From: Enterocloster clostridioformis
Lineage (GTDB): Bacteria > Bacillota > Clostridia > Lachnospirales > Lachnospiraceae
Length of the DNA: 64,000 bases
Assembly (NCBI RefSeq): GCF_020297485.1
Contig: NZ_JAIWZC010000001.1
Location: 868,001-932,000 of the forward strand
Reading direction: 5' to 3'
A model generated the notes under the pieces. The model saw only the letters and a program-made list of their open reading frames with translations, did no database searches and was not told the origin of the DNA. A program made the translations under genes and the position numbers. Positions 14,063 to 59,379 of the stretch are shown one piece after another (positions within the stretch are counted from its first letter, which is position 1; each line of letters opens with the position of its first letter).

Positions 14063-14144
14063 ACTGCGGGCTTTTCTCCCCTTTGACAACCAAAACAACA
14101 GAAAATTAAAAAAGTATAAAATAACCCAACCGCCAGACAGACTG

Positions 14145-14938: not shown

Positions 14939-15021
14939 CCGCTCCCCCGCTCCGGGGAGGTTCTTAAAAAACTCCATATATATATATCTTGACGTGCCGC
15001 CGCCCGCCAGAAAGCCGCAAA

Positions 15022-15331
15022 TGGGAAGCAGGCCATTGTCAAAGTTTTTAAGGAAGCGGTCAAAAGTCCAATAGGAAGGCAGTGGACGGGATATATCAAA
15101 ACCGCAGTAATGAGCAATGAGAAGGTTGTTGTTCAGATAATCGACAAGGTCGGAAACCATGGAAAAACCTTCACATTTCATAACAATGAAGGAACAAATC
15201 ATGGCATGATTAGAAAAGCCTTTTCTTCCCGTATGAGGGAACTCCTGAACAAAAGATAAATCAAGCCGGAGGAATAACGAGTCATAAAATTTGGCAACAG
15301 GCTGAGAGGTAAAAAGACGGATGTCTTTCAA
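15022..15331 (-). pseudogene. IS transposase, N-terminal fragment
   Basis: About 100 residues resembling the N-terminal DUF772-like region of a DDE transposase (FVQEFPHTGRKGFSNHAMIC, HYCGFDISRPLPSYWTFDRF). The similarity ends near 15022, where the frame runs into the opposite-strand end of the serine recombinase fragment. No catalytic domain is present. The start ATG at 15331 lies near an AT-rich stretch without a clear ribosome-binding site. Confidence 0.6.
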
Positions 15332-15471
15332 AATTTCTTAACGGTAGATAACAATCAGCTCCTTTTGTGTGAATTGATTTTGACAACTTCATTATATCAA
15401 AGGGAGCTGGTTGTTTCTATAAATTTGGAGTGATAAAGAGGTTTGCCATGCCTCACAAACCCGCATAAATA

Positions 15472-15576
15472 CTAAATATTTGGAGTTTTGTCATGGCTAT
15501 CAGGCGGTTTGCTATATACGTGGTTTTCCTTGAGCATATAGGCGCTCTGCCCTTTCTTAAATTGTTTAATATCCAT
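15472..15576 (-). CDS. Small 34-residue protein of unknown function
   Basis: Short reading frame MDIKQFKKGQSAYMLKENHV ending in SHDKTPNI, with AAGGAAGG 7 bases before the ATG. The opening resembles the start of small accessory proteins of Tn916-like elements (an impression only), and it may be a truncated one. Located between the IS fragment and the toxin-antitoxin pair. Confidence 0.35.
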   Translation of the reverse strand: MDIKQFKKGQSAYMLKENHVYSKPPDSHDKTPNI

Positions 15577-15665
15577 TTTATATCCTTCCTTTGCTCGTTT
15601 TTCTATATGTGTCGTAGAAATTATGTGAGGCGGTAGACGGATATTAGGGATGAATTGCCGGGAAA

Positions 15666-16064
15666 TTATGTCCAGTCTTCTATCCGCAGCCCCGTGACGC
15701 GGGCAAACTCCCTGGTATTGTTTGTCACAAGTATCAGGCCTTGTGACCTAGCGTGCCCTGCGATTAACAGGTCCATGGGACCGATTGGCGTACCTTTCCT
15801 CTCCAGTTCCGCTCTTATCTGTCCATAGACTTCCGCTGCCTCGCCATCAAAATCCAAAACTGTAATTGCGGAGAGAAACAGCGACATCGCAATGCGGTTC
15901 TTTTCTACAGCCTGGCTTTTCTCCACGCCATGCATGAGTTCTGCATAAGTCACCACAGAAATGCACAGGTCTTCGGGATTCTGTGACAGGATTTTTCTGA
16001 TTACTGATTCCGGTTTGTTTTTAATGGCATAAATGCAGATATTCGTATCCATCATATATTTCAT
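15666..16064 (-). CDS. vapC: VapC-like PIN-domain toxin ribonuclease
   Basis: PIN-domain protein of 132 residues. Conserved acidic residues are visible in MMDTNICIYAIKNK (first Asp), VVTYAELMHGVEKS (Glu), and GPMDLLIAGHA (Asp), with TNNTREFARVTGLRIEDW at the end. VapC toxins cleave tRNA or rRNA using Mg2+. It overlaps the upstream antitoxin gene by 4 bases (ATGA), the usual type II toxin-antitoxin layout. It looks intact and may explain retention of this otherwise decayed DNA. Confidence 0.88.
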   Translation of the reverse strand: MKYMMDTNICIYAIKNKPESVIRKILSQNPEDLCISVVTYAELMHGVEKSQAVEKNRIAMSLFLSAITVLDFDGEAAEVYGQIRAELERKGTPIGPMDLLIAGHARSQGLILVTNNTREFARVTGLRIEDWT

Positions 16065-16291
16065 AGTTCTTCCCGCTCCTGCCCGGCCGTCTCTCCACGT
16101 CCTTCTTCCATGAAATCATCGGAAAACAGGTTCAAAGCGCTTAGGAATCCGGACCATTTATCCCCTTTCGGCATTAAGAGGACCACGTCGCCTATTTTAT
16201 TGACCATGACCTCATCCCCCTGGAAGCGGTATTCCTTTGGCAGCCTTACAGCCTGGCTCCGGCCATTTTCGAATAATTTTGCAGTCATCAT
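16061..16291 (-). CDS. vapB: VapB-like antitoxin (AbrB/MazE fold)
   Basis: Antitoxin of 76 residues with a swapped-hairpin DNA-binding start (TAKLFENGRSQAVRLPKEYRF, then GDEVMVNKIGDVVLLMPKG) and a C-terminal tail that should wrap the toxin. AGGAGG lies 9 bases before the ATG. The AT-rich repeat region 16308-16342 (TATATACTATGATATATAC) just upstream is a likely autoregulated promoter/operator. Confidence 0.87.
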   Translation of the reverse strand: MMTAKLFENGRSQAVRLPKEYRFQGDEVMVNKIGDVVLLMPKGDKWSGFLSALNLFSDDFMEEGRGETAGQEREEL

Positions 16292-16375
16292 AGTGAGACA
16301 CCTCCTTTATATCCTTAGTATATACTATGATATATACCGTGTCAAGGATGCGCTTTCCAATTATTTTAAAACGGT

Positions 16376-16383
16376 GAGGTAAA
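16376..16383. repeat. 8 bp target duplication, left copy
   Basis: GAGGTAAA directly precedes the left inverted repeat of the IS4-type element and is repeated at 18071-18078 directly after the right one. Confidence 0.8.
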
Positions 16384-16595
16384 GTTACAGTTCACAGGTC
16401 AATGTCATTTAGTTAACTTTTTGTAAAAGAAAGAATGTTTTTTTAAAATAGAGATCTGACGTTCCAAACGGATAGATTGAAGAGAAGGATATAGGGATTA
16501 TTTATCAGAAGTAGTTTTGTAAATATTTTACCGCAAGGCAAACAAACAGATTTACATCTGCTTCAAAAAGGGTATTATAGATATTGATGAAACTG

Positions 16596-17847
16596 TTACT
16601 TATGCTGCTCGATAAAATATCGAGGTTTTCGGAAGTGTGCCGTTTGGAGTCGTGGATACTGTCGATCATTCCGTATCGGAATCAGCTCTTTTGTCAGCAG
16701 GGACATCACATCTATGGAGTCTTTCCCTGTGTTCGGACGGAGAAAGACTCTACAAATATGAGCAGCCATACTGAAATTTACTTTGTATTCATATTTCGTG
16801 TTTCCCTTTTCTATGTTTGTAGGCATGGAAGTTACTCAATCCGACCGTATATTTCAGCTTACGGAAAGACCCCTCAATGGCCCATCTGGCATAGTATAGA
16901 AGTTTTATTTGTTCCGACGGGAATTCATCTGAAGGCAGATTAGTGACGATGCATTCATAAGAATCATCCGATATCGGAAACCGTACGATTCTAAAAGATA
17001 AATCGTAGGTATCCAAGGAACCATATGCAACGTAATCAAACGATGCAGCCGCATCCACAAAGCGTTTGTAATAACCTTCTTTAATCGATATCTTCTTTTT
17101 ATGACTGCGGACCAGAGTTACATTCACCTGAATATCAAAGGAGTCTGCATCTGGAAACTCAAAATTTCCAACAAGTCCTTTGGAATGGATATCTTTGGTG
17201 CGAAATAAAAAATACTGGCCTTTTTCCTTCACATGTACCATGTTGTTGTAAGAACAATAGCCTCTGTCACCGATAAAAACATCTTTTGTACCAGTCAGTA
17301 AATCGTGGCGGTCGACCATTTCACAGAAAGCACTAAATTCATCTTTCTGATGGATCGGCTGGATCAGCGCATCGGAATAAGTGTGCTTCTGTAAGTCGTA
17401 AAAAGCATTCAGATGCATACTGTAAAAGCCCTTTATTGAATGTCCATCAGAGACATGATACTCTTCTGGGGCGAAAGCAGGTTTACTGAAAAAGGTAAAG
17501 GTGGAGCCATCTGCAGCAAGAAAGCGGTAGCGTAGCTTTTTTTGGTCATAAAAGGAAGCAAAATGGTTAAAATGCCGAAATACAGCTTCCAGGGCATCCG
17601 GGCTAAGCTTTGCGCGTTGCTGGTTGAGTGCCGAAGCAGTTGGCGACTGTGGATCCATGTCGAAGAAGTCCAGCAATTCATTTTTTGTGCTGGAGGAGCC
17701 TTGGGAAACAAGGAAAGTGATAAGCTTATCGGCGGGGAACTTCCTGTTCCTTGTCAGATCGGTGTCCGAATAGGTAAATTCGGAGATTACGGATGAAACA
17801 AGATGGACGGAATGGGAAAAGCATTGTTTAATTTTTTGATGGAACAT
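16596..17847 (-). pseudogene. IS4 family transposase, internal deletion and frameshift near the C-terminus
   Basis: DDE transposase that starts at 17847 with AGGAGG upstream. Visible parts are YRFLAADGSTFTFF (first Asp), TKDVFIGDRGYCSYNN (second Asp) and YARWAIEGSFRKLKYTVGLS (Glu in the YREK-like region). After SNFHAYK the sequence jumps and changes frame; the rest (KGNTKYEYKVNFSMAAHICR to the end at 16596) continues in another frame, with roughly 25-30 residues missing by comparison with the expected family pattern. Catalytic residues survive but the protein is interrupted. Confidence 0.8.
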
Positions 17848-17894
17848 TGTGTGTACCTCCTTGAATTAGAATGAATTTATGATTCTAATCCAAG

Positions 17895-17940
17895 GGCCGC
17901 TCTCGCTACCTATTAAAGTCAATCAGTAGCGAGAGCGGCC
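17895..17940. repeat. Perfect 15 bp stem inside the IS
   Basis: GGCCGCTCTCGCTAC pairs exactly with GTAGCGAGAGCGGCC around a 16-base loop, about 50 bases upstream of the transposase start. A structure in this position can block readthrough transcription from outside promoters; that role is inferred. Confidence 0.7.
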
Positions 17941-18078
17941 GCACATTTTGTGGTGTATGTCAACTGTTTTTATGAAAAAAGGGAAAAATATGGTTAGACA
18001 CCCTTCATTAAGAATCTAACCATAATATTGCAAAGCGTTAACTAAATGACATTGACCTGTGAACTGTAACGAGGTAAA

Positions 18079-18335
18079 GGAAGAGGGCCATCCTGCACAG
18101 GATACAAACACCAGTATTCGTGGTGCATCTATCGGAAAACCGGCGGCTCCTGTATCAGTATTCGTGATATAATGCCGGAGGATGAGGCCGTGAAATGCGT
18201 TTTGGTCATCCGCAAAACAAAGAAGCGCGGGTGGCGTAGCGGCGCGTGCGAAAGGCGCTGATAACCTGATATGGCCGCCACCGCCCTGCTGGGCGCCCAT
18301 GCTGCCTCAATGCGTGGGCCGTTTCCAGCACCGCT
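18079..18335. other. Gene-free junction between mobile relics and the orotate operon
   Basis: GC-richer stretch that continues the sequence interrupted by the IS. A rightward frame reads CIYRKTGGSCISIRDIMPED and KCVLVIRKTKKRGW, perhaps a scrap of a mobile-element gene, but I cannot name it. I see no terminator for the operon that ends at 18336. Confidence 0.4.
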
Positions 18336-19526
18336 CTATAAAGAAATTGTCAATAGCGCAGACCTTGCTATTCCTTCCCTCTTCGCTGTTTCCGCCACGG
18401 CCCTGGCCACCACATCTGCCACCTGCCTGTTAAGGGGCGAGGGAATGATATAATCAGCTCTCAACTCTTCCTCCGGTATCATTTTTGCGATTGCATAAGC
18501 AGCCTCACGCTTCATCGCCTCTGTAATCTCCCTTGCTCTGACAGACAGCGCGCCTTTGAAAATTCCCGGAAATACAAGCACATTGTTAATCTGGTTCGGA
18601 AAATCCGAGCGACCGGTGCCTACCACTGCCGCGCCTCCCTTTAGCGCCTCCTCCGGCATGATTTCCGGCACAGGATTAGCCATAGCAAAGACGATTCCCT
18701 TATTCATAGTACCTACCATTTCCTTTGTTACCAGGCCGGGTCGCGAAACGCCTACAAATGCATCCGCCCCTTTCATTGCATCTGCCAGGCTTCCATGCTC
18801 CTTATTCCTGTTGCTTACATGAGAAATCTCCTCCTGCCCCGGATTCAGTCCCGCATCCCCCTCGCAGATAATCCCGTTGATATCGCACATGATGATATTG
18901 CCGAATCCCATACTGATTAACAGCTTTCCAATCGCAATGCCTGCTGCGCCGGCTCCATTAACCACAATCCGCATCTGCCCCATTTCCTTCCCGGTTATTT
19001 TCAGGGCATTCAGCATAGCAGCGGCAGCCACAATGGCTGTTCCATGCTGATCATCATGGAACACCGGAATATCACACAATTCCTTTAACCGCTTTTCTAC
19101 TTCAAAGCATCTGGGCGCGGCTATATCTTCAAGATTGATTCCGCCAAAGCTCTGTGAAATCAGATAAATGGTCTGCACAATGGTATCTACATCCTTTGAA
19201 TTAATACAGATGGGAAATGCATCTACATCAGCAAACTCCTTAAACAGAGCGCATTTTCCCTCCATCACCGGCATGCCTGCCGCCGGACCGATATCTCCCA
19301 GTCCCAGGACTGCGCTTCCATCTGTAATGACAGCTACCAGGTTATTTCTTCTGGTAAGCTCAAAGGACTTATTATAGTCTGCGGCAATCTCCCGGCACGG
19401 TTGTGCAACTCCCGGTGTGTATAACAGGGATAAGTCTTCCTTTGTCTCTATCTTTTTCCGGGATATCACCTCGATCTTGCCCTGAAGCTTATAGTGAAGA
19501 TTCAATGATTCCTGATTAATGTCCAT
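18336..19526 (-). CDS. Malic enzyme (malate -> pyruvate + CO2)
   Basis: NAD(P)-dependent malic enzyme of about 396 residues. The N-terminal domain shows [14 protein letters not shown] and [17 protein letters not shown]; the substrate/metal region is [20 protein letters not shown]; the nucleotide-binding domain is [16 protein letters not shown]. The ATG at 19526 ([13 protein letters not shown]) has GGGAG 6 bases upstream; the longer in-frame start at 19574 lacks a good site. It is the last gene of the operon, 51 bases after fumarase, and in this context turns malate from orotate breakdown into pyruvate. Confidence 0.9.
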
Positions 19527-19577
19527 CTTTTTCTCCCTTCTGGTATGTCGTATTCCTCCACATGGTATAATCATCTG

Positions 19578-20951
19578 CTATTGTGATGAAACCATCTGCT
19601 CCGGATGAAATACCCTGTCAAACTCCTCCCCTGTCAGAAAGCCCAGGGAAATACATGCTTCCTTTAAAGAAATATCCTCTTTATAAGCCTTCTTAGCTGT
19701 CTGCGCCGCGTGATCATAGCCTATATAGGGGGCTAATGCTGTCACCAGCATAAGGGAACGGTTAAGGTTCTCATTCATTTTCCTGCGGTTTGCCTTGATT
19801 CCTCTGGCACAATGCAGCTCAAAGGAACGCAGGGAATCAGACAGCAGACGCACGGACTGTAAAAAATTATAAATGATTACAGGCATGAATACATTCAGTT
19901 CAAAATTTCCCTGGGAGGCCGCAAAACCGATGGCGCAGTCATTGCCCATGACCTGCACTGCTACCATAGTAACGGACTCACATTGGGTGGGATTTACCTT
20001 ACCAGGCATAATGGAACTGCCTGGCTCATTTTCAGGTATCTGAATCTCCCCCAGTCCGCACCGTGGCCCGCTGGACAGCCAGCGCACATCATTGGCAATT
20101 TTCATCATATTGGCCGCCAGGGCCTTTAACGCGCCGTGGGCAAATACGGTCGCGTCCTTGCTGGTCAGGGAATGGAACTTATTATCCGCAGTCCTAAAAT
20201 CAATTCCGGTCAGCTCAGACACTGCCGCTGCCGCCGCCGTGTCAAATCCTTTAGGGGCATTTAAGCCAGTCCCTACGGCTGTGCCTCCTAAGGCAAGCTC
20301 CTTTAATCCTGTCAGAGAAGAAACCACCATTTCTCTGTTTTTTTCCAGCATGCTCCTCCAGCCGCTTATCTCCTGTGAGAACTGTATGGGAGTCGCATCC
20401 TGCAGATGGGTCCTCCCACTCTTTATAATCCCTTCATTTTCCTTCTCCAGACGCAGGAAAGTCCTGATAAGCTGATCGATGGAGGGCAGCAGCTTTTCCT
20501 GAACCTCCATTACCGCCGCTATATGCATAGCTGTTGGAAATGTGTCATTGGAGCTCTGGGACATGTTTACATGATCGTTGGGATGTAAAAGCTTCTCACC
20601 TGCAATCTCATTGCCCCGGTTAGCAATCACCTCATTCACATTCATGTTGGATTGGGTGCCGCTTCCTGTCTGCCAGACAGACAGAGGGAAATGATCGTCC
20701 AGTTTCCCGGACAGAATCTCGTCACATACCTGGCTGATCGATTTCAGGCGCTGTTCATCCAGTTTTCCCAGCCGGTTATTGGCAACAGCCGCGGATTTTT
20801 TAAGAATTGCGAATGCCCGTATGACCTCCATTGGGATTTTTTCAATACCTATCTTAAAATTCTGGAAGCTTCGCTGTGTCTGAGCGCCCCAGTACCGGTC
20901 GGACGGAACTTCAATCTCTCCCATGGAATCATGCTCCAGCCTGTAATCCAT
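19578..20951 (-). CDS. fumC: Fumarate hydratase class II
   Basis: Aspartase/fumarase superfamily enzyme of 457 residues. It shows the fumarase-type [56 protein letters not shown] and the signature [15 protein letters not shown]. Compared with the neighbouring aspartase, GSGTQSNMN (rather than [10 protein letters not shown]) supports fumarase. It would hydrate fumarate to malate. The start lies one base after the stop of the aspartase gene, so both are co-translated. Confidence 0.9.
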
Positions 20952-20952
20952 C

Positions 20953-22389
20953 TTAAAGCCCTCCCATCTTATTCATCGCTTCAATCCCTGAAATTCCCGG
21001 TTCCGTCATGGAAACAGGGTTCAGTATAATGTCCAGCTGCTCCTTTGTCAGAAGCTTGTCCCTGATTACCAGTTCCCTTACGGACTTGCCTGTCCGAATG
21101 GCCTCCTTTGCCACATTGGCAGCCTTTTCATAACCCACATAAGGACAGATTGCCGTGATGATTCCCACACTGTTTTCCACCATATCTTTGCAATGCTGTT
21201 CATTTGCCGTAATTCCGGAGATACAGTTGTCAACCAGCGTATGTACCGCACAGGCAATGGTCTCAACCGACTGGAACAATTTATAAAAAATGATCGGTTC
21301 AAATGCGTTCAGCTCCAGCTGCCCCGCCTCTGCTGCCATGGCTACGGTCATGTCATTGCCAATGACATGGAACGCTACCTGGTTCACCACCTCCGGAATG
21401 ACCGGATTGACCTTCCCTGGCATAATGGAGGAGCCGTTCTGCTTTGCAGGCAGGTTAATTTCTCCCAGCCCGGTTCTGGGGCCTGACGACATAAGCCTTA
21501 AATCATTGCACATCTTAGATAAATTCACCGCGCAAGACTTGGCGATTCCTGAACAGGCTACATAACCGTCCAGATTCTGGGTTGCGTCAATTAAGTCATA
21601 TGCCTGAATCAGCTCCAAACCGGAAATCAAAGAAATATTCTTAACAACCCGCTGTAAATACTTTACATCCGCATTTAATCCGGTCCCAATGGCAGTCCCG
21701 CCCAGATTCAGATGCCTCATCTCCTCCTTGGCCCTGTCAAAGCGGTTAATATCCCTGCGTATGGCTGTAGCATAGGCATGGAACTCCTGTCCCAGCCGGA
21801 TGGGAACCGCATCCTGGAGCTGAGTCCGTCCCATCTTAATGACATGGTTAAATTCTTCCGACTTCTCCATCAGCGCATGGTACAGCCGTTCCAGCTCTGC
21901 CTGAGCCTTGTAAAGCAGCTTCAGTGTGGTAAGCTTTCCACAGGAGGGGAACACATCATTGGTGGACTGCCCATAATTTACATGATCATTTGGATTCACC
22001 ACGGAATAATCGCCCTTTTCCCCTCCCAGAATTTCGATAGCCCGGTTGGCAATCACCTCATTGGCATTCATATTGAGGGAAGTTCCAGCGCCGCCCTGGA
22101 TGGGGTCAACAATAAACTCATCATGCAGCTTGCCCGACATGATTTCATCACATGCCTGCACAATGGCGTCAGCACGCTTTTTGTCCAGTCTCCCCACCTC
22201 AAAATTAGTGATGGCCGCCGCCTTTTTGATTTGGGCAAAGCTATTGATAAACTCCGGATGCATCTTCAGACCGGTGATGAAAAAATTCTCTGCAGCGCGA
22301 AGGGTCTGCACCCCATAATACGCGTCCTTTGGTATCTGCTTTTCACCAATAGAATCATGTTCGATACGATACTCTGTCTCTTTTGACAT
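20953..22389 (-). CDS. aspA: Aspartate ammonia-lyase
   Basis: Aspartase of about 478 residues, converting L-aspartate to fumarate and ammonia. Key segments are [77 protein letters not shown] and the signature [15 protein letters not shown]. The GGAGTS form of the loop is typical of aspartase rather than fumarase. The ATG at 22389 has GGGAGG upstream. It follows the dihydroorotate dehydrogenase gene by 17 bases. Confidence 0.92.
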
Positions 22390-22406
22390 TTTGTTCTCCC
22401 TCCCTG

Positions 22407-23312
22407 TCACAGAATCCCTCTGATTTCTGAAATATTGGAAATACGATTCTTTTCAAGATAATCTTCCATTCCATCTATGATATCCATGGATATGGATGGA
22501 TTCATGAAAGAAGCTGCCCCTACCTGAAGTGTTGTCGCTCCCGCCATAATAAATTCGATTGCATCCTGCCATGTTGCAATACCACCGATTCCCATAACCG
22601 GAATCTTAACAGCATGTGCAACCTGGTGTACCATGCGCAGGGCGATAGGCTTGATTGCAGGACCGGAAAGCCCGGCATACACATTGTCAAACACAGGCTT
22701 GCCCCGTTTGATATCAATCGCCATCGCAAGAAACGTGTTGGTAAGAGATACGCCGTCCGCGCCCTCTTCCTCACAGGCCCTGGCCAGTGCCACGATATCC
22801 TCTGCGTTAGGTGAAAGCTTGATTACAAGCTTATGTTTACATACCTTCCGGATTTCCCGGACCACCTGGCGGGCAAGCTCTGTCTTCACCCCAAAATTCA
22901 TCCCTCCGGCCTTTACATTAGGACAGGAGATATTCAGTTCGAGAAGATCCAACTCACATCCGTTCAGCAGTTCCACTGCCTCTAAGTAGTCTTCCATAGA
23001 ATGTCCCCCAAGGTTTACTATGTTAACTAAATCAAGTGCGTTCATCCGCTTGGCATCACATTCGATGAAATGTTTTACTCCCGGATTTTCAAGCCCTACG
23101 CTGTTCATTACACCACTTGGCGTCTCCCAGACACGGATCCCATCGTTGCCGCCTCTCGGATGTAATGTCAGCCCTTTGGAACAGAGTCCTCCCAATCTCT
23201 GAATATCAAAATATTCACTCATCTCTTTTCCGAATCCACAGGTGCCGGATGCCAGCGCAACCGGATTCTTAAAATGCACGCCTGCATAGTTCACTTCTAA
23301 TCTCTTACTCAT
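22407..23312 (-). CDS. pyrD: Dihydroorotate dehydrogenase B, catalytic subunit
   Basis: Class 1B FMN enzyme of 301 residues that interconverts dihydroorotate and orotate. Visible are [20 protein letters not shown], the active-site loop [18 protein letters not shown] with the catalytic cysteine typical of class 1, and the FMN phosphate region [20 protein letters not shown]. The ATG at 23312 ([14 protein letters not shown]) has GAGG upstream and overlaps pyrK by 8 bases. Paired with PyrK it would be NAD-linked, able to reduce orotate to dihydroorotate, the first step of orotate fermentation. Confidence 0.92.
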
Positions 23313-24018
23313 TTCCAAACACCTCACTTCCCAACATGACCGGACCATCTTTGCACGCTCTCTTATTACCGGCGGAAGTCTTGCAAGTACACACCAGACA
23401 TGCTCCAATTCCACAGGCCATACGGTTTTCCATGGATACATAAACCGGCGCCTGAACCCCAAGGGATTTGCATTTCTTACACAGAACCTTCATCATAATT
23501 TCCGGTCCGCAGGTCATGATGCAGTCATATTTCAGAGGGTCAATATCATCCGTGACAAATCCTCCTATATTTACAGTAACCTTATCCGCCACCTTCTCAT
23601 AGAGGTCAACCAGAAGAGCCTCATCACTGAATCCAAGATAGATATCCACGATTGTATCGGGATTTAACTCTTTCAGTTTCTTTGCAGTAAGATACAGTGG
23701 TGCAATTCCCACGCCGCCGCCTACAAGGGCAACCGTTCCTTTTGCTTCCGGAAATCCGTTTCCATGAGGCCCATCCAGAGTAATTTCATCACCAGGCTTA
23801 AGCGTTGCAAAAATCTCCGTGCCTTTTCCCACTACCTTATAGAGGAAGCTGACAGTCTGTCCATCCGCATCGAACACGCTGATTGGTCTGGAGAGCAGCG
23901 GATATTCTCCCCATGCCCGGAGCATATAGAACTGCCCCATGGCAGCCGTATTTTCAGCCTTTACTTTCATCAAATAAAAATCCTTTGAAATCCTTTCATT
24001 ATGTAAAATCTCCGACAT
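23305..24018 (-). CDS. pyrK: Dihydroorotate dehydrogenase B, electron transfer subunit
   Basis: FAD and 2Fe-2S protein of about 237 residues in the ferredoxin reductase family. The FAD-binding site is [14 protein letters not shown], the NAD-binding region is [20 protein letters not shown], and the iron-sulfur cysteines are in [20 protein letters not shown]. It moves electrons between NAD(H) and PyrD. The ATG at 24018 has AAGGAGG upstream; the gene lies 10 bases after the symporter gene and overlaps pyrD. Confidence 0.92.
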
Positions 24019-24028
24019 CTTGTCCTCC

Positions 24029-25477
24029 TTATTCAACGCAAAGTTTTCTTTGCCTCGTCATTAGTGAAACTAAAACCGTCAGCAGGATATTGGTGAAAAA
24101 TCCCCACATGAATCCCGGCCATCCAAGAGGCGCTACATTCATGATTCTTGTTCCGAACAGAATTGCGATTCCAGCCGTCATACCACAGGCAGCTCCTGTT
24201 TTTGTACAGCCTTTCCAGTACATACCAAGCAGGAATGCCGGCGCCAGCTGAGCCAATCCTGTATACGCTACGTCCTGAACAATCTGAACCAGGGTCTCCG
24301 GCGGGTTAAGCGCCATAATTCCACAGATTGCCGCAATGGTGAATACAATCGTTCTGGATAAAATCATATTTTTCTTTTCTGATATCCTGCCCTTTCCGTT
24401 AATCAGAATCAAATCCTGGGAAACAATCTGGGAAGATACCAGCAGCATGGCATTGATGGTGGAAATACCGGCTGCTATGGCCGCTGCCATAACCAGGGCT
24501 GCAATAAACCATTTGGATCGGGTAGTCATAAGCAGAGGCAGAACATTATCAGCCGCCCCCACCTGTTGGGGCTGTAACAGCAAATGTCCTGCAAGGCCGA
24601 TGAACAGAGTGGCAAAGCCATAAATCAGTATCTGGGATACCGGAATACTGATGGCTGATTTTGCCAAAGCGTCTTCATCCTTTGCCATCAAAGATTTCAT
24701 CCATATATGAGGGCAGAACCAGATTCCAAAAGGCAGTACAATAAACTGCATAATCCAGTATTTATCCGTATATGTTCCCTGTGGCCCCGGCCTTGAAAGC
24801 AATTCCGGCATCTTGTCAATGATCTGGGTGAATAGAGCCTGTATACCTCCCACAGGCGCAATGGCAATCCATGCAGCTACTACAATTCCCACCAGGAGGA
24901 TCACTGCCTGCACGGCATCCAGCAATACCACACCACCAGCTCCTCCAATCAGTACATATAGCAGAGAAAAGACTACCGATATCAGAATAGCCGCCGGGTA
25001 GGAAATCGCATCCCCGCTCACTATATTCATTGCTCTGGCATTTCCCACATATTGCATAGCTAAAAACACCATGGTCATAAGAACGGAGATGCAGGATGCC
25101 AGCACCTTTAAATACTTACTGTCAAACCGGTCCTGTAGATAATCTCCCAGAGACATGTAGCCATTTTTGTTTGCCAGTTTACGAATCTTGTTTCCAAAAT
25201 AAACTACCATGAGGGCAACCCATACCTGACTTAAAACAATGGAAATATAAGATATTCCATGTGTATAGTACATTCCCGGCGCTCCTAAAAAAGCGAATGT
25301 GCTCTGCATGGCCGCAATCATGGTCAGTGGAAGAAGCACGGAGCTGACGCCGCGGTTAGCAAGAAAGAACCCCTCCGCATTCTTCTGTTTTTTCTTTCTG
25401 CCATTTAAGACGGTAATAGCCAGCATGAAACACAGATAAGCCAGTATGATTCCAAGACTGATTTGTCCTGTATTCAT
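24029..25477 (-). CDS. Sodium:solute symporter (PanF-like SSS family), candidate orotate transporter
   Basis: Membrane protein of 482 residues with about 13 hydrophobic segments. SSS-family hallmarks include GFFLANRGVSSVLLPLTMIA, YMSLGDYLQDRFDSKYLK and GGAGGVVLLDAVQAVILLVG. Its start overlaps the small YhdT-like gene by 4 bases, and it is embedded between dihydroorotase and PyrK. The family imports organic anions, vitamins or nucleobases with Na+. Uptake of orotate (or dihydroorotate) is inferred purely from the operon. Confidence 0.85.
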   Translation of the reverse strand: MNTGQISLGIILAYLCFMLAITVLNGRKKKQKNAEGFFLANRGVSSVLLPLTMIAAMQSTFAFLGAPGMYYTHGISYISIVLSQVWVALMVVYFGNKIRKLANKNGYMSLGDYLQDRFDSKYLKVLASCISVLMTMVFLAMQYVGNARAMNIVSGDAISYPAAILISVVFSLLYVLIGGAGGVVLLDAVQAVILLVGIVVAAWIAIAPVGGIQALFTQIIDKMPELLSRPGPQGTYTDKYWIMQFIVLPFGIWFCPHIWMKSLMAKDEDALAKSAISIPVSQILIYGFATLFIGLAGHLLLQPQQVGAADNVLPLLMTTRSKWFIAALVMAAAIAAGISTINAMLLVSSQIVSQDLILINGKGRISEKKNMILSRTIVFTIAAICGIMALNPPETLVQIVQDVAYTGLAQLAPAFLLGMYWKGCTKTGAACGMTAGIAILFGTRIMNVAPLGWPGFMWGFFTNILLTVLVSLMTRQRKLCVE

Positions 25478-25692
25478 TCTTCCTCTTCCCCCTTCCTTTT
25501 ATTGGAATCTACAAAGCATTTACAAACCCATAAAACAAACAGCAGGTTCACAACCATTAATATCCACCAGTATGCCAGTGATGAAGGCAGCCACCCAAAT
25601 AAGTATACCGGCGCCCCCTTTGTAAAGGGGAATGGTATCACACACAAAAGATACAGTACCGCAAAGATACCTCCAATTAATTTATGGTTCAT
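25474..25692 (-). CDS. YhdT-like (DUF997) small membrane protein
   Basis: Protein of 72 residues with two membrane segments (IGGIFAVLYLLCVIPFPF and YWWILMVVNLLFVLWVC) and a charged tail. Small DUF997/YhdT proteins accompany PanF-type symporters and are thought to be accessory subunits. The ATG at 25692 has GGAGG 6 bases upstream, within the end of pyrC, and the stop overlaps the symporter start by 4 bases. Confidence 0.8.
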   Translation of the reverse strand: MNHKLIGGIFAVLYLLCVIPFPFTKGAPVYLFGWLPSSLAYWWILMVVNLLFVLWVCKCFVDSNKRKGEEEE

Positions 25693-26968
25693 GGTTTTCC
25701 TCCTCATCCATATACACCACCTGTCCGCTGCATATGGTATATTTTATCTTTCCAACCAGCTCAGCTCCAATAAATGGGGAATTTTCTGATTTTGAATGAA
25801 ACCGTTCTGCCACCCATTTTTCCCGTTCATCAAACACAATTAAGTCTGCCCTGGCTCCAACTTTTAAGCTTCCACCGTCCAGCTGGTACAGCTCTGCTGG
25901 TTTCACCGTCATCTTCTCCAGCAGATGCGGCAGAGTCATATGACCTTTCCTGACAAGATAGGTAATCCCCAAAGCCAATGCAGTTTCAAGTCCAATCATA
26001 CCGCTGGGCGCTTCCTCAATCCCCTTCGCCTTTTCCTCTCTGCTGTGAGGCGCATGATCCGTGGCAATCATATCAATCACATCGTCCTTTAAGCCTTGAA
26101 TCAAGGCGTATCGATCCTCCTCGGTTCTCAAAGGCGGGTTCACCTTTGCCAGGGTTCCTTTTTCCAGAACAGCCTCTTCGTTAAGAGAAAAATGCTGCGG
26201 GGTCACTTCCGCATATACCCTTGCTCCCAGTCCTTTCATCATCCGAATCAGCTCTACAGATACCTTGCTGCTTATGTGCTGAATATTGATGATAGCCCCT
26301 GTCTTAAGGGCCAGAAGACAGTCCCTCGCAATCAATGTCTCCTCAGCCAGGGAGGAAGCTCCCTCAACTCCCATCGCCTGCGCAATCTTCCCTGCGTTAA
26401 TGCCGGGGCTTCCCACCAGATCCGGGTCCTCTTCATGGAAGCTTAAAGGCACTCCAAGCTGTTTCGACTTCCTCATGGCCTCCAGAACCAGCTGTACATT
26501 TTTGATTGGTATTCCATCATCCGTAAAGCCCACTGCTCCAGCCTGCTTAAGCGCTTCCATATCTGTCAGTCTCTGGCTTTTTAGCCCCACTGTTACCGCC
26601 GCCGCATTGAGCACCCGGATTGGCAGGGATGCCGCTCTCTTTCTTAAATCCCAAAGGACCTCTTTGCAGTCAACCACCGGATTGGTATTCGCCATACAGA
26701 CTACGGTAGTATATCCTCCCGCTGCCGCAGCACGGGCTCCGCTTTCCAGGTCTTCTTTATAGGTAAAACCCGGATCGCGGAAATGAACATGGGCATCAAT
26801 CAGTCCTGGAGCAACAACCTTTCCTCTTGCGTCAATCACAGTGTCATAATCATCACTCTTCTGGAATTTTCCCATGCCCGCAATGATCCCGTCACGGATA
26901 ATAATATCCAGAGGCTCATCCATACCTGATTTCGGATCAATTACACGGCCGTCTTTTATCAGAATCAT
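25682..26968 (-). CDS. pyrC: Dihydroorotase
   Basis: Class I (long) dihydroorotase of 428 residues. The metal-binding HVHFRDPG starts at His60, followed by YKEDLESGARAAAAGGYTTV and the substrate-binding MANTNPVVD. VGFTDDGIPIKNVQL and IATDHAPHSREEK supply the remaining active-site residues. MANTNP and the DHAPH form favour dihydroorotase over allantoinase or hydantoinase. In this operon it would open dihydroorotate to N-carbamoyl-L-aspartate. It overlaps the upstream hydrolase gene by 4 bases. Confidence 0.9.
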   Translation of the reverse strand: MILIKDGRVIDPKSGMDEPLDIIIRDGIIAGMGKFQKSDDYDTVIDARGKVVAPGLIDAHVHFRDPGFTYKEDLESGARAAAAGGYTTVVCMANTNPVVDCKEVLWDLRKRAASLPIRVLNAAAVTVGLKSQRLTDMEALKQAGAVGFTDDGIPIKNVQLVLEAMRKSKQLGVPLSFHEEDPDLVGSPGINAGKIAQAMGVEGASSLAEETLIARDCLLALKTGAIINIQHISSKVSVELIRMMKGLGARVYAEVTPQHFSLNEEAVLEKGTLAKVNPPLRTEEDRYALIQGLKDDVIDMIATDHAPHSREEKAKGIEEAPSGMIGLETALALGITYLVRKGHMTLPHLLEKMTVKPAELYQLDGGSLKVGARADLIVFDEREKWVAERFHSKSENSPFIGAELVGKIKYTICSGQVVYMDEEENHEP

Positions 26969-28179
26969 GCTGCTCCCCCTTTCAGGTATTCATAGATTAC
27001 CCTTGCCCCATCGCAAATATGAAAGATAGACGCAAATTCCGCCCGGTTATGAGATACCCCTTTCATACAGGGGATGAACACCATCCCGGTATCACAGATA
27101 CCCGCGAAAGACATGGCATCATGACCTGCCCCGCTTATAATCTTCCTGCTGCCGATTCCCAGCCGCCTGGCGGCCTGCTCCAAACCGGTCTGTACCTCAG
27201 AGCTCATATCAACAGGGGGAATGTCGCTGGTCTTTTCCTCCAGATATTCAATTCCACGTTTCTCACAAATTCGTCTCGCCACCTCCCGCATGCTTTTCTC
27301 GATTCGGTCAAGACTGGCGCTTTCAATTCCGCGTATATCAACCCCCAGCTCCACCTCGCCGGGAATTACGTTCAGCACGTTGGGATGATTATTCACCACT
27401 CCTACCGTAGCAACTGACTGGTATACTGCTTCCTTATTGCCGATCCGCTCTAATTCCAGTATGATTTCCGCGGCTGCGCACATTGCATCATTGCGCATAC
27501 ACATAGGTGTCGCACCGGAATGCTCTGCCATTCCCCTAAGATACATCTTAAACCGTCTCGGCCCGGCTATGGTCTGAACAATTCCAACGGTAGTCCCCGA
27601 TTCTTCCAGAACCTTCCCCTGCTCAATGTGCAGTTCCAGATATTGGCGTATCCCCGTGATTTTTGCCGGATGCAGGTTCAGCTTCCGTCTGCAAAAGATC
27701 GCTTCCAGCGTTTCCCCTTCTTTGGAAACCAGCCCCCCGATATCCTGCTTGTATATCTCCCTCGTGATAAGCCCGCTTCCTATGGTGCAGCAGCCAAAAT
27801 TACTGGACTCCTCACACCGGAACGCACCCACCCGGATCGGCACTTTCATTCCTTCTTCTTTGGCCCATTTCATAACCATAAGCCCTGCAATGATTCCCGC
27901 CACCCCGTCATACCTTCCGCCTTCAATTACGGAATCCAGATGTGAGCCAATCAAATAGTAATCCGAGTCCTGATTGTTCATCACATATGTATTCCCTGCC
28001 TCATCCTCTTCAACCTGGCACTGCAGTTCTCTCCCCAGCTTTGTGAGCACAGCATGCATCCTGTCTTCCTGCTCCGTATAGCCCAACCTTGTGACTCCGC
28101 CATTTTCCGTACTGCCTATATCATAGAAACTGTCAAACAGCTTTTCACAATATCGGATGTCAGCAATACAATGCTCCAT
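26965..28179 (-). CDS. M20-family N-carbamoyl-L-amino acid hydrolase, likely N-carbamoylaspartate hydrolase (ureidosuccinase)
   Basis: Zinc amidohydrolase of 404 residues in the hydantoinase/carbamoylase branch of M20. Metal ligands sit in GSHLDSVIEGGRYDGVAGI, the glutamate pair in RCEESSNFG, ELHIEQGKVLEESG, and the C-terminal GAGHDAMSFAG. Relatives hydrolyse N-carbamoyl amino acids, beta-ureidopropionate or allantoate. Here the adjacent dihydroorotase, PyrDK and aspartase make N-carbamoyl-L-aspartate the best substrate, giving aspartate, CO2 and ammonia. First gene of the operon, with GGGAGG 7 bases upstream of the ATG. Confidence 0.85.
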   Translation of the reverse strand: MEHCIADIRYCEKLFDSFYDIGSTENGGVTRLGYTEQEDRMHAVLTKLGRELQCQVEEDEAGNTYVMNNQDSDYYLIGSHLDSVIEGGRYDGVAGIIAGLMVMKWAKEEGMKVPIRVGAFRCEESSNFGCCTIGSGLITREIYKQDIGGLVSKEGETLEAIFCRRKLNLHPAKITGIRQYLELHIEQGKVLEESGTTVGIVQTIAGPRRFKMYLRGMAEHSGATPMCMRNDAMCAAAEIILELERIGNKEAVYQSVATVGVVNNHPNVLNVIPGEVELGVDIRGIESASLDRIEKSMREVARRICEKRGIEYLEEKTSDIPPVDMSSEVQTGLEQAARRLGIGSRKIISGAGHDAMSFAGICDTGMVFIPCMKGVSHNRAEFASIFHICDGARVIYEYLKGGAA

Positions 28180-28208
28180 TGAAACACCTCCCTCGCCTTG
28201 ATATATTC

Positions 28209-28214
28209 ATTATA
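28209..28214 (-). promoter_or_regulatory. -10 element of the orotate operon promoter
   Basis: Consensus TATAAT on the minus strand, about 30 bases upstream of the first start codon. No good -35 hexamer lies 17 bases further upstream (TAGAAA-like), which fits an activator-dependent promoter, possibly served by the neighbouring PucR protein. Confidence 0.55.
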
Positions 28215-28291
28215 ATTGCGTTAGAATCCTGTTTCTATATCCTGGGAGTCAAGGTTTTTCTGTATAATTTGTCCAAATAAACAAAAGGATC

Positions 28292-28323
28292 AAAAAACGG
28301 CATAGACAATACCAACTATGCCG
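28292..28323 (-). terminator. Terminator of the PucR regulator gene
   Basis: On the minus strand CGGCATAG pairs with CTATGCCG around a 10-base loop and is followed by a run of T. It separates the regulator gene from the orotate operon. Confidence 0.85.
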
Positions 28324-28357
28324 CATGCTATCAAACCACTCTGTTCTATTCATTTTT

Positions 28358-29542
28358 TCAAAAACTTATTTTAAAATTCATCTTCAACGCCAGCACCGCC
28401 AAATATAGTCTGAAGTTATCATCGGGATTTCTAAGGTCAAGTCCCGTCAGTTCCTGAAGCCGGTTCAGCCTGTATTTCACCGTATTTTTGTGGGTATACA
28501 TCCGGTCTGATACACGTTCCATGTTGGCCCCGCACTCGTAATACATAACCAATGTATCCAGCAGCTCCTGATTTTTGACAGCCCCTAAGACACTGGTAAA
28601 TACATGTTCGGACGGCGAAACCAATATCTTTTCCAACTCACAGTATGGTTCCAGCTTCTTATAAAAATGCAGAAACTGGTTTCTGGAAAGGGTATACCCC
28701 ACCTTCATTGCCTTAAACGACAGGCTGTAAGAATCCCGGATTCCTTTTAAGCCTTTTTTTACAGGACCAACGCCGCACACAATCCCCTTACCCTCTGCCT
28801 TCCATATTTTTTTTAAATAATCCTCATCCAAATAATTTTCCAGATACTGCTCCAGCCTTTTTGCTTCCTTCGCCTCCGCCAGTAATAAGAAGCCCTTCTC
28901 CAGACGGATCATGGGACATCCTTGGATTGAACCGCTGTCCAGCAGGTAGCGCTGTAAGGTTTGGCATAAAAAACGGATTGCTTTCTTTTCCTGTTCCGAA
29001 GGTATGTATTTTTTCCTGAAGCAGATATTAACTGCTGAAAAATAGTCCTCATCCGCTTCAAAGCCAAAGAGGCGTCCTCTCTCAGCCATAAGAATTTCAT
29101 CGGTATAGTTTTCATAGATAATATCCTTTACATATTTTTCCAGGATAGATGAGGTGTTTTCCTCTTCAAAAATCAGGTTCATTACATTCATCAGCAAATC
29201 AATATATGGCGTTTCAAAGGGAATTTCAAGCAGAGGAAGGCTGCATCTGTCCGCGGTCTCTTTTACTCTTTCTGAAATAACATTAACATATTGCCCTGTT
29301 TTGACAGCAACACAGCAGCACGTATCTGCCAAATCCTCAATCAGCCGGCACTGAGCTTCCTCGCTTTTGCGTACAGAGTAAAAGCTTGTAATCAGAAAGT
29401 CATTTCCTTTCAGCCATCGTTTAATATCCGGCACTTCCATGACAGTCACGTGCTCTACCTTCCTTTGAAGTCCATTTTCCCCAGACAATACATGGATTCC
29501 CCTAAATGCCGGAAGACGTAATAAGTCGCTCACCTTCGCCAT
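28358..29542 (-). CDS. PucR family transcriptional regulator
   Basis: Regulator of 394 residues with the PucR layout: an N-terminal purine-catabolism regulatory domain (VSDLLRLPAFRGIHVLSGEN, VTVMEVPDIKRWLKGNDFLI), a GGDEF-like middle, and a C-terminal helix-turn-helix (TLVMYYECGANMERVSDRMY, then THKNTVKYRLNRLQELTGLD). Such proteins sense catabolic intermediates and activate adjacent degradation operons. It is transcribed in the same direction as, and upstream of, the orotate operon but has its own terminator. Control of that operon is inferred. Confidence 0.87.
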   Translation of the reverse strand: MAKVSDLLRLPAFRGIHVLSGENGLQRKVEHVTVMEVPDIKRWLKGNDFLITSFYSVRKSEEAQCRLIEDLADTCCCVAVKTGQYVNVISERVKETADRCSLPLLEIPFETPYIDLLMNVMNLIFEEENTSSILEKYVKDIIYENYTDEILMAERGRLFGFEADEDYFSAVNICFRKKYIPSEQEKKAIRFLCQTLQRYLLDSGSIQGCPMIRLEKGFLLLAEAKEAKRLEQYLENYLDEDYLKKIWKAEGKGIVCGVGPVKKGLKGIRDSYSLSFKAMKVGYTLSRNQFLHFYKKLEPYCELEKILVSPSEHVFTSVLGAVKNQELLDTLVMYYECGANMERVSDRMYTHKNTVKYRLNRLQELTGLDLRNPDDNFRLYLAVLALKMNFKISF

Positions 29543-29793
29543 AATTCCTTCCCCCTATCCTTTTGTTAAGTAGAGTAAAAAATTTATTATAATAATATCT
29601 TTTATAAAATGCAATCCGTTTTCTTTGTTATTTTTAACAAATTTGTAATTAATAATTTGTTGTTTTTAATAAACTTCCTATTTTCTCTTGACTTTCTCAA
29701 TGTGAAGATATATTATAAGATTTTCCCATTTAGGTTCAGTTTTACTTTACCATATTTTAGTATTTTCTCACAATTTAAAGGAGGATATGCTTT
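29543..29793. promoter_or_regulatory. AT-rich divergent intergenic region between two PucR-type genes
   Basis: About 250 bases of strongly AT-rich sequence between the divergently oriented regulator genes, presumably holding both promoters. AAAGGAGG precedes the ATG at 29794. I see no RNA gene in it. Confidence 0.5.
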
Positions 29794-30609
29794 ATGAACA
29801 AAAATGATACCAATATTACATTTTCCTCATACTTTAATGATATTACAATTCATTTCTATGAGGACATTGCTTTCATGGAATCTGTCGGAAAAAAATTCGG
29901 CATTGATGTTAACAAGGACTACTTTCTTGCGATGTCGTTTCTCTATCCCTCTGACATGATTGTCGCCTACGAAGATAAGCATGCATTAATGGAACTGTTA
30001 ACCCCAATTGTGGCATATGGTCCTTTAAATAAGTCCGTTGATTCCCCGCAGTTCATTACATGCGATAAGGGAACCGCACTCTTTTTGGCGGCACACACAA
30101 AGGAAGAATTATTAAATGCCAGCACCATGGCATGTGATAAAGCTCTGGAACTTTTAAAGAAGAGCCTGCCAGACGTCTTTATCCGTATCGGCATCGGCAC
30201 TTTAGAAAACGGTTTGACCGGCATTGAGCGCACATACCAAAACAGCCTGCGAGCCGTTAATGCCGGAGAAAAATTCAAAAAAGAACGCCGTGTTCTGGAT
30301 TTTATCGGAATGGAGATATACAGCGCAATTAATGCCATGGTTCTGGCTCACGGACAGTCTTTAATCAGTACCATTTTACTGCAGTTAACCGATGAGGAAC
30401 AGACGATTCTTGGAAAATACTATAAGTGTAAGGAACAGGTTCCTGCTGTCGCTGCGGCATTACACATCAGTGAGGCTGAAGTCCGGAATGCATTATGCAG
30501 AGTGAAAGAAAAAACCGGCCTGGATGTCAATGATACGGAAGACAATTTTAAATTAAATTTTATTATGATTGCAAAAAGAGTGCTGGAAAAAGAGAAGAAG
30601 CGACGCTGA
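29794..30609 (+). CDS. PucR/CdaR-like transcriptional regulator without the N-terminal sensor domain
   Basis: Protein of 271 residues. The middle resembles the GGDEF-like region of PucR/CdaR proteins (IRIGIGTLENGLTGIERTYQ, NSLRAVNAGEKF). The C-terminus is their helix-turn-helix (KEQVPAVAAALHISEAEVRN, then ALCRVKEKTGLDVNDTEDNFKL). It lacks the N-terminal purine-catabolism domain. It is divergent from the full PucR gene and ends before a strong terminator. Its effector and targets are unknown; control of the orotate genes is possible. Confidence 0.7.
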   Translation: MNKNDTNITFSSYFNDITIHFYEDIAFMESVGKKFGIDVNKDYFLAMSFLYPSDMIVAYEDKHALMELLTPIVAYGPLNKSVDSPQFITCDKGTALFLAAHTKEELLNASTMACDKALELLKKSLPDVFIRIGIGTLENGLTGIERTYQNSLRAVNAGEKFKKERRVLDFIGMEIYSAINAMVLAHGQSLISTILLQLTDEEQTILGKYYKCKEQVPAVAAALHISEAEVRNALCRVKEKTGLDVNDTEDNFKLNFIMIAKRVLEKEKKRR

Positions 30610-30747
30610 CAATCACACCACATAGTTGAGCCGATGACCAGGGCGTGTCCGAAAATTGCTTTCCGCCAGCTGTGCGTTCCGCTTTGTGGGAGATTTGGCT
30701 CAAATGAAGGGCGCATAGCGGGCTAAGTAATCTGAATTTGAGCCCAT

Positions 30748-30790
30748 AAGTCATAGTTCTCCAGTATCGGAGGCTATGACTTTTCTTTTT
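30748..30790 (+). terminator. Terminator between the regulator and the fic remnant
   Basis: AAGTCATAG (30748-30756) pairs with CTATGACTT (30774-30782), followed by TTCTTTTT. The preceding 130 bases (30615-30745) hold no supported gene. Confidence 0.75.
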
Positions 30791-30818
30791 AAAACTCAAG
30801 TATCTTTTCTTAAGATTT

Positions 30819-32040
30819 TTAATACTCTTCATATGCAAATACTCGGTTTCTGGAAGCATTGGTTGTTTCTTTTAAAATTCCAATCTCCACTAATTTATTT
30901 ACCGCATTTGACACCGTATTATAACTTAACTCCAAAGCACTCGCTGTTTTTTTGATATCAATGATTGGGTACTGTTCGATATAATCAAAAAGTGATCTCA
31001 CATTATCTTTTTTACGAGTTGTTTTTGGTAATATTCCAAGATTTTTCTCATGAAGTTTTGACAGTGCTTCAATTGTTATCAAGGAGTCTTTCGCTGCCGC
31101 TGATACTGCTTCTAAAAAGAACGTTACCCATTGTTCATAATTACCGCTTCGTCTTACTTCTGAAATCCTGTCATAATACTCAATCTGATTTTTCTTCAGA
31201 AAATAAGAAATATATATGACTGGCTTGTCCAACAAATCTTGTTCCATCAAATATAATAAAATCATCATTCTCCCAACGCGGCCATTTCCGTCCAAAAAAG
31301 GATGGATTGTTTCAAATTGATAATGAATCAATGCAATCCAGATCAGCGGATCATAATCATCCCCTTCGTTCATATACTTTTCCAGTTCTGACATTGCCTG
31401 ATTCATATCTTCTACATTCGGTGGAATATACCTGGCTTCCAATAAGGAGCAATTCGCAGCTCCAATCCAGTTTTGGGATCTTCTGAATTCCCCTGGATTT
31501 TTTTCCTGTCCACGAACACCCGATAACAATTTCTCGTGTATTTCTCTAAATAATCGTCCGCACAAAGGTAATTTCTTAATTCTCTCCAATGCATAGGAAC
31601 ATGCATCCACATAATTGATGACATCGATAACATCCAGATTCGCTGTATTGTCTAGCTCTGGATCTAGCACATCATCCAAGGTACACTGTGTTCCTTCAAT
31701 CTGGGAAGAAATCAAGGCTTCTTTTCGAACGTACATAGAAATAAATAGTTCAACGTTTGGTATCAGTTTTGAAGCTGTGTCCAATTTCACCAGTTCTCGA
31801 TTCGCTTCTACTAGTATAACTCGATTTAAATAAGCTTACAATTTAAGCATTGGTAGTAATCTGATTTCTTGGCTTACGTGTCCGTGCTTTGGGCGCACGT
31901 TTCCCTTGGTTTTCAGGATAATAATGTAAACTTATTAAAATCGAGTTATACTAGTTTTTTTACCATATCACTGCCTATTTCTAAGACAGGGTCTGGTGGT
32001 AACGCTGCAGGCTTAAACGATTTATATTGTGCATTTCCTG
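30819..32040 (-). pseudogene. Fic-domain protein gene split by a small inverted-repeat element
   Basis: The main frame (to 31790, GTG) encodes the Fic core HPFLDGNGRVGRMMILLYL (FIC motif for AMP transfer) and a C-terminal winged helix (IDIKKTASALELSYNTVSNA). The N-terminal Fic_N region is interrupted: SFKPAALPPDPVLEIGSDMV lies at about 31960-32020 and should join directly to EANRELVKLDTASKLIPN, but 134 bases plus a 6 bp duplication intervene and give an immediate in-frame stop. The extreme N-terminus also lacks a start codon before a stop near 32043. Some product could still start at the GTG inside, keeping the FIC motif. Confidence 0.82.
31816..31949. mobile_element. 134 bp MITE inserted in fic
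   Basis: The ends are inverted repeats: ATAACTCGATTT (31816-31827) and AAATCGAGTTAT (31938-31949), with similarity continuing for about 30 bases. ACTAGT directly flanks both sides (31810-31815 and 31950-31955) as a 6 bp target duplication. It contains no reading frame. Removing element plus one ACTAGT copy restores the fic frame (KKLVEANREL), which confirms the insertion. Confidence 0.85.
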
Positions 32041-32057
32041 TTAGGTTATTTTATTGT

Positions 32058-32552: not shown

Positions 32553-32578
32553 AGTAGACCTCTTTAGTTTCAAGTTTT

Positions 32579-58525: not shown

Positions 58526-58527
58526 GA

Positions 58528-59337: not shown

Positions 59338-59379
59338 TTGTTTTTCCTCCATACAATCAGTAAGTTATAGTTTTACCGA

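Follow-up and report, generated by a model that had tools for sequence, protein, structure and literature searches.

A nine-gene operon of Enterocloster clostridioformis with a probable role in orotate degradation

The 64,000-nucleotide stretch of Enterocloster clostridioformis DNA analyzed here (referred to as the window hereafter) corresponds to positions 868001–932000 of contig 1 in a genome of 5.87 Mb in 2 contigs. On its reverse strand, at 18336–28179, nine intact open reading frames (ORFs) are tightly packed. In the 5′ to 3′ order, they encode an M20-family amidohydrolase, dihydroorotase (PyrC), a 77-amino-acid protein, an SSF symporter, PyrK, PyrD, aspartase, fumarase, and malic enzyme. 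It is highly probable that this operon constitutes a dedicated orotate-degrading pathway, which is complete in the sense that it leads from orotate to pyruvate; we are less sure that it serves fermentation for energy. This view is based on the gene content and order, their conservation, a duplicate biosynthetic gene set, and a conserved promoter-like region. A preceding reading made from the letters of the window (the sequence-only reading) had described a nine-gene operon converting orotate to pyruvate: all nine ORFs were found intact at the place and on the strand it gave, and the conversion is supported by three features, namely, the separate pyr set, the conserved gene order, and an aspartase gene that follows pyrD in another family.

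Gene products of the operon

The first gene (26965–28179; all coordinates of the operon refer to the reverse strand) encodes an M20 N-carbamoyl amidohydrolase, recognized by TIGR01879 (345 bits against a cut-off of 204). It is followed by the genes for the dihydroorotase PyrC (25682–26968; NF006839, 611 bits against 576), the membrane-like 77-amino-acid protein (25474–25707), and the SSF sodium:solute symporter (24029–25477; PF00474, 172.9 bits). Next come PyrK, the FAD/2Fe-2S electron transfer subunit (23305–24036; NF000798, 311.5 bits against 219), and PyrD, the catalytic subunit of class 1B dihydroorotate dehydrogenase (DHODH), which is of the type referred to as the cluster type below (22407–23312; NF005574, 398 bits against 269). 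The remaining genes encode the aspartate ammonia-lyase AspA (20953–22410; TIGR00839, 692 bits against 681), the class II fumarase FumC (19578–20951; TIGR00979, 744 bits against 665), and a malic enzyme converting malate to pyruvate and CO2 (18336–19574). The last protein passed the Pfam cut-offs (malic, 111.8 bits; Malic_M, 87.4 bits), whereas its NCBIfam names were all below their cut-offs. When the own genome was searched with AspA (E ≤ 1e-30), the matches were the aspA gene itself and the fumC gene only.

From the listed starts, the malic enzyme and fumarase genes are separated by 3 bases, and the fumarase and aspartase genes by 1 base; the junctions from aspartase–PyrD up to PyrC–M20 are overlaps of 4, 8, 8, 4, 26, and 4 bases, respectively. 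The first of these gaps becomes 51 bases if the malic enzyme starts at its second Met (residue 17), as it may (start at 19526). The start of AspA is probably Met8, and that of PyrD is most likely the ATG at 23312, not the mechanically assigned TTG at 23462. Within the gene run, pyrB, pyrE, and pyrF were not found. The hairpin test found no terminator-like hairpin after the malic enzyme gene in 18101–18345, and no Rfam family reached its gathering threshold in 16000–33000.

PyrD was aligned over its length with the PyrD of DHODH B in the structure 1ep1 (the Lactococcus enzyme), and it retains the NISCPN and N..GL..NPG loops, to which orotate binding is ascribed. In PyrK, C208, C213, C216, and C228 are invariant among 9 aligned PyrKs, including the biosynthetic copy. 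Residues 2–421 of PyrC align with the solved dihydroorotase 3d6n. As far as sequences can tell, the operon thus encodes both the NAD-linked class 1B DHODH (PyrD together with PyrK carrying 2Fe-2S) and the dihydroorotase of orotate fermentation.

The M20 protein belongs among the hydantoinase/carbamoylase amidases, being homologous to the N-carbamoyl-L-amino acid hydrolase 3n5f and the allantoate amidohydrolase 1z2l, and its metal-site motifs line up with those of 3n5f. Among the 25 models listed for this protein, none narrower than the TIGR01879 subfamily was passed. Unlike AllC and ErtE, it lies below the equivalog cut-offs of both (228 against 598 bits for AllC; 300 against 520 bits for ErtE) and is linked to PyrC and PyrDK. 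The alignment of 14 orthologs contains 155 invariant positions, among which are the putative catalytic ones: H80, D91, E123, E124, H184, H220, R229, N270, R283, and H377. We assume that these residues have the catalytic and carboxylate-binding roles of their counterparts in related structures. One more position, R209, aligns with W in 3n5f, 5tp4, 4wjb, and 5thw, the four solved relatives in the alignment (allantoate amidohydrolases are not among these), and it may bear on specificity. The main argument for the substrate is the genetic linkage: since the M20 gene is encoded with PyrC, which makes N-carbamoyl-L-aspartate from dihydroorotate, and with an aspartate-using enzyme, the M20 protein is a candidate ureidosuccinase (EC 3.5.1.7) that would act on N-carbamoyl-L-aspartate.

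Conservation of the gene order and the separate biosynthetic genes

Orthologs of the M20 protein are rare: they were found in 9 of the 299 genomes of the family (E ≤ 1e-100) and in 3 of the 391 genomes of the class (E ≤ 1e-130), the own genome included in both counts, with at most 6 (family) and 4 (class) candidates scored per genome. A scan of named genomes with a single protein, which reaches close relatives only, provided three loci (L038, L039, and L040). In all these named Lachnospiraceae records, the full nine-gene order recurs at 74–100% protein identity, and the arrangement is therefore not due to chance. One of them, L038 of [Clostridium] clostridioforme AGR2157, is 99.4% identical to the window over 13,456 bases. 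Plasmid-borne relatives (E ≤ 1e-60) appeared in only 9 of 72,556 records, all of which were below 36% identity.

In total, 15 M20 loci were examined. A contig end truncates L037, and the side downstream of the pair can be judged in 13 of the loci, L034 being cut there. A relative of dihydroorotase adjoins M20 in all 14 testable loci (in L036, it is only a 43% match), and in 9 of those 13 loci, M20, PyrC, PyrK, and PyrD share a single gene run. These nine loci, the core loci hereafter, are the window, L038, L039, L040, L029, L030, L031, L089, and L090. Thus, the core is also present in five genomes beyond the nine-gene carriers, two of which come from other families of the class: L089 in genome G693 (probably Ruminiclostridium sufflavum DSM 19573) and L090 in genome G853. 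In 5 of the 9 core loci (the window, L038, L039, L040, and L089), AspA comes after PyrD; this includes G693, where the aspartase gene follows pyrD in another family. The conservation of the gene order foreseen by the sequence-only reading is accordingly borne out, for nine genes in the three named records and for the core in the five further genomes.

Some M20–PyrC loci have other neighbors. In L031 (4620–7322) and L032 (14632–17455), an allantoinase/hydantoinase-like amidohydrolase gene and a PGA_cap protein gene lie ahead of the M20–PyrC pair, beside a branched-chain-type ABC set; the L031 amidohydrolase scored 350 bits, slightly less than the allantoinase cut-off of 358, the PGA_cap protein was identified in the L031 copy, and the L032 copies were named by likeness. 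This gene set might handle a related ring compound, for example carboxymethylhydantoin. In L033 (9075–13455), L034 (1–3536), and L035 (4343–8685), the pair has no visible PyrDK and adjoins beta-lactamase-fold and glyoxalase-like genes, together with a HAD-type hydrolase gene in L033 and L035 (Pfam confirmed the L033 copies, and the remainder were assigned by eye). These three pairs may act on a different ureide.

The own genome carries a second, biosynthetic set of pyr genes. On contig 2, pyrF, pyrK, pyrD, and pyrE stand together (found as ORFs, with PyrK and PyrD by tblastn; PyrF, 274 against 111 bits; PyrE, 155 against 107 bits), and a second dihydroorotase gene (pyrC) over the cut-offs and pyrB are also present. 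The PyrK and PyrD of this set are homologous to those of the operon, but the operon copies have no adjoining pyrB, pyrE, or pyrF; the identity between the two copies is 46% for PyrD and 35% for PyrK. The second pyrDK/pyrC set that the sequence-only reading had proposed looking for therefore exists, so that the operon copies are not the only ones in the genome, as the first refuting case of that reading would have required; its argument against a biosynthetic operon, drawn from the absence of pyrB, pyrE, and pyrF, is upheld. Three of the nine genes bear pyr names, as those of an ordinary pyrimidine biosynthesis operon would; this explanation is nevertheless ruled out for this genome by the second set, and it is hardly conceivable as a whole, since the synthesis has no use for M20, aspartase, fumarase, and malic enzyme.

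The two PyrD types were compared in a tree of 22 rows (21 of them different), comprising 12 cluster-type and 10 biosynthetic-type rows, in which a midpoint root was used for drawing only. The types are parted by a split with a support of 100/100. Here, the label "biosynthetic-type" is based on linkage for L006 (pyrF and pyrE) and L032 (pyrE), and on kinship for the other rows. Both types occur in six genomes (the own genome, G633, G634, G635, G048, and G693), and the genomes of L038–L040 each have 2 pyrD (E ≤ 1e-40), 2 pyrC, and 1 pyrB over the cut-off. Genome G283 carries the core, with a single pyrC and a single pyrD, and pyrB is without a match in it at E ≤ 1e-10. This would fit a set used for catabolism only; however, the genome is 95% complete and gave zero candidates in the pyrB search, so that a loss of pyrB by assembly is possible.

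PyrD-related genes were also seen elsewhere. At L046 (9875–13233, genome G294), cluster-type PyrD, PyrK, and PyrC occur with no M20; the genome has pyrB and one pyrD was found in it, and the cluster-type PyrD is apparently used in biosynthesis there. Genome G295 has diverged PyrD-like matches (L097 and L099), which the tree omits, and PyrK pieces of 66–69% identity at L097; cluster-type PyrDK genes may thus lie elsewhere in this genome in a broken or misassembled form. On contig 2 of the own genome, a partial DHO_dh match (184550–184981) and an amidohydrolase below the dihydroorotase cut-off (196276–197544) lie about 11 kb apart (L003, L007, and L011), and this pair is maybe another locus for pyrimidine or purine breakdown.

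Transport and regulation

The slot between PyrC and PyrK is occupied by the gene for the 77-amino-acid protein and the SSF gene in the window, L038, L039, L040, and L090. In L029 and L030 (genomes G048 and G283), a DAACS carrier (PF00375) replaces the SSF symporter at the transporter slot; the transporter genes of L031 form a branched-chain-type ABC set (one permease was confirmed, and the rest were assigned by eye), and those of L089 form an ABC set that includes a binding protein of the NMT1 type. Since different carriers surround one core, a common imported substrate is suggested, and orotate would be that substrate. According to two reports (PMC13328217, PMC5703999), DctA, a DAACS carrier, imports orotate in E. 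coli and Salmonella. Uptake of the DctA type thus involves the same family as in the relatives L029 and L030, whereas the window operon has an SSF symporter instead; the L029 carrier, which alone was scanned, is below the DctA model cut-off (132 against 513). The SSF symporter itself passed no NCBIfam cut-off, its top score being that of panF (194 bits against 328). The 77-amino-acid protein, whose gene is kept beside the SSF gene in L039, L040, and L090, is possibly a small partner of the symporter. No Pfam family exceeded its cut-off for this protein (best E, 0.09), nor did NCBIfam provide any match at E ≤ 0.1; the earlier label "YhdT-like", which rests on its size, hydrophobic look, and position, is not supported by either database.

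A gene for a PucR-family regulator (28358–29542, reverse strand; PF07905, 114 bits; PF13556, 74.5 bits) lies just upstream of the operon, and among the 9 core loci, 8 have such a regulator gene near or within the core, the exception being L090. Between it and the operon, two elements were found on the same strand. One is a terminator-like hairpin after pucR (28292–28323), consisting of CGGCATAG, a 10-base loop, CTATGCCG, and T6; it is also present in L038, hairpins of different sequence occur in L040 and L089, and the same test did not find one in L039, L029, and L030. Another is a promoter/operator-like region (28206–28275) of the form GGACAAA..CCTTG..GGATATAGAA, with a −10 element TATAAT at 28209–28214. 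This region is common to the window, L039, L040, L029, L030, and L089, as well as L038 of the same species; L039 has an extra ORF between pucR and this region.

The rows of the promoter-like region were aligned on an anchor chosen by us. With a 70-column profile in a leave-one-out manner, the site came out as the top match within its own locus, or within the window, for all of the six rows; with the first 46 columns alone, this was so in 5 of 6, the best match of L040 being the site between its two PucR-like genes. The window site scored 71.1 with the full profile, which it helped to build, and 47.5 when it was left out, as compared with a best score of 12.6 in 10 shuffles of the window. At the threshold used, the motif had no match in L031, L090, L032–L036, L046, L047, and L006. 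The promoter at 28206–28275 is probably under the control of the PucR-type regulator, whose gene precedes it, and the operon is presumably induced by orotate. Weaker copies of the site were seen between the two PucR-like genes of L040 (at 8420) and L039 (at 6642), suggesting self-control of the regulator. In the window, the second of the PucR-like genes is divergent (29794–30609, forward strand) and encodes a short protein that has no PucR N-terminal domain and in which HTH_30 and GGDEF_2 are just below the Pfam cut-offs; its relatives show 71–98.5% identity in L038–L040 and 48–50% in L031, L032, L033, and L035.

Farther upstream, beyond the regulators, a Fic/DOC-family protein is encoded at 30819–31790, and the DNA match to L038 extends through it. 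Downstream of the operon, this match ends at 18272, and MobA/MobL-type, PIN-domain, and DDE transposase genes, with a recombinase-like piece recognized by eye, occupy 12797–17847. Two transketolase-half genes (one confirmed), a gene assigned by eye to a GntR-type regulator, and TRAP-type transporter genes with a confirmed DctM component lie in the region 57590–63430.

Proposed pathway and its meaning

In the proposed pathway, the SSF symporter would import orotate, and PyrDK, presumably working in the reducing direction, would convert orotate and NADH to dihydroorotate. PyrC would then open the ring to give N-carbamoyl-L-aspartate, from which the M20 protein would strip the carbamoyl group as CO2 and NH3. 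The aspartase would release fumarate and NH3, the fumarase would form malate, and the malic enzyme would yield pyruvate and CO2, returning the reducing equivalent spent by PyrDK if its cofactor is the one we presume. Conversion of pyruvate to acetate by genes elsewhere would yield ATP, and by our own balance, orotate would give acetate + 3 CO2 + 2 NH3 + 2[H].

Several observations weigh against this pathway, and they concern different parts of it. Some relate to the M20–PyrC pair, which has no adjacent PyrDK in L032, L033, L035, and L036. These pairs, and the allantoinase/hydantoinase-like gene beside that of L032, as in L031, would fit the catabolism of another cyclic ureide (hydantoin, a dihydropyrimidine, or an allantoin-like compound) by drifted PyrD and PyrC. 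We regard this as very doubtful: PyrD keeps the DHODH B loops, PyrC passes the dihydroorotase equivalog cut-off, the M20 protein fails those of AllC and ErtE, and in two families the gene after that for PyrD encodes aspartase.

Others relate to the number of pyrD genes. Genomes G170 (79% complete) and G853 have the core and pyrB, and only one pyrD was found in each, so that their PyrDK may serve both directions. In genome G269, pyrB and a cut M20 gene are present, and the sole pyrD found is of the cluster type (79%), located with an adjoining PyrK gene on a different contig from M20. Genomes G294 and G098 have cluster-type PyrD and pyrB, but M20 was found neither by the search at E ≤ 1e-100 nor in the retrieved surroundings; across the order, cluster-type PyrD was detected in 3 of 392 genomes (E ≤ 1e-120), namely, these two and the own genome. 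Cluster-type PyrD alone is thus no marker of catabolism, and the core with M20 is a better one. The single pyrD alongside pyrB in G170, G853, and G269 would suit an amphibolic set, in which PyrC and PyrDK also feed pyrimidine synthesis and M20 acts as an overflow control. This is improbable, because the own genome and five other core genomes hold a second, biosynthetic-type PyrD, and an M20 enzyme beside PyrC would waste carbamoyl-aspartate in the synthetic direction.

The rest concern the later steps and the control of the operon: no more than 4 of the 9 core loci carry fumarase and malic enzyme genes; no second copy of AspA or FumC was found in the own genome, and both may therefore also serve other metabolism; and two core loci (L031 and L090) are without the promoter motif. 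The degradation of orotate could serve mainly for nitrogen or aspartate/fumarate supply, not energy. This is a real possibility, to which we give a lesser weight: the aspartase, fumarase, and malic enzyme genes are not beside the core in G048, G283, G170, and G853, and the PucR domain is named after purine catabolism; on the other hand, the operon in the clade of the window adds three enzymes leading from aspartate to pyruvate, which could re-make the reducing equivalent. The gain of energy rather than nitrogen is presumed in the fermentative form of the orotate-degrading pathway.

Biochemical work of the 1950s on Zymobacterium oroticum dealt with its orotate fermentation and ureidosuccinase, and the cited literature includes one title on its dihydroorotase and one on its DHODH. 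The fermentation by this organism, also called C. oroticum and now Faecalicatena orotica, follows the reaction series proposed here, and F. orotica belongs to the Lachnospiraceae, as does the named record closest to the window. PMC10395836 lists the C. oroticum DHODH under class 1B, the class to which the signatures of the window PyrDK also point; PMC4016543 deals with other routes. F. orotica is not among the names in the best 120 of 7584, of 7989, and of 2403 protein matches, few of which are named, nor among the three named loci. Among the open-literature matches listed (titles and abstract starts, mostly without subscription papers), none described a gene cluster for orotate fermentation. 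The pathway is known; the genetic unit and its conserved core are without a description among those matches.

On balance, we lean toward the view that orotate fermentation is here traced to genes for the first time; in this view, M20 would be the missing ureidosuccinase gene, transporters would be swapped freely around a conserved core with PucR at a conserved promoter, members would extend across Clostridia families, and orotate would be a possible shared substrate of communities. A relative of the M20 protein at 79% identity (P0025) occurs on at least 1000 contigs, and the trait may thus be frequent in some habitats. If the proposed pathway is correct, genes would be assigned to a fermentation known for about seventy years, with a candidate gene for ureidosuccinase; orotate breakdown would become predictable from genomes and metagenomes, and annotations of pyrC, pyrD, and pyrK in Clostridia would not always denote biosynthesis.

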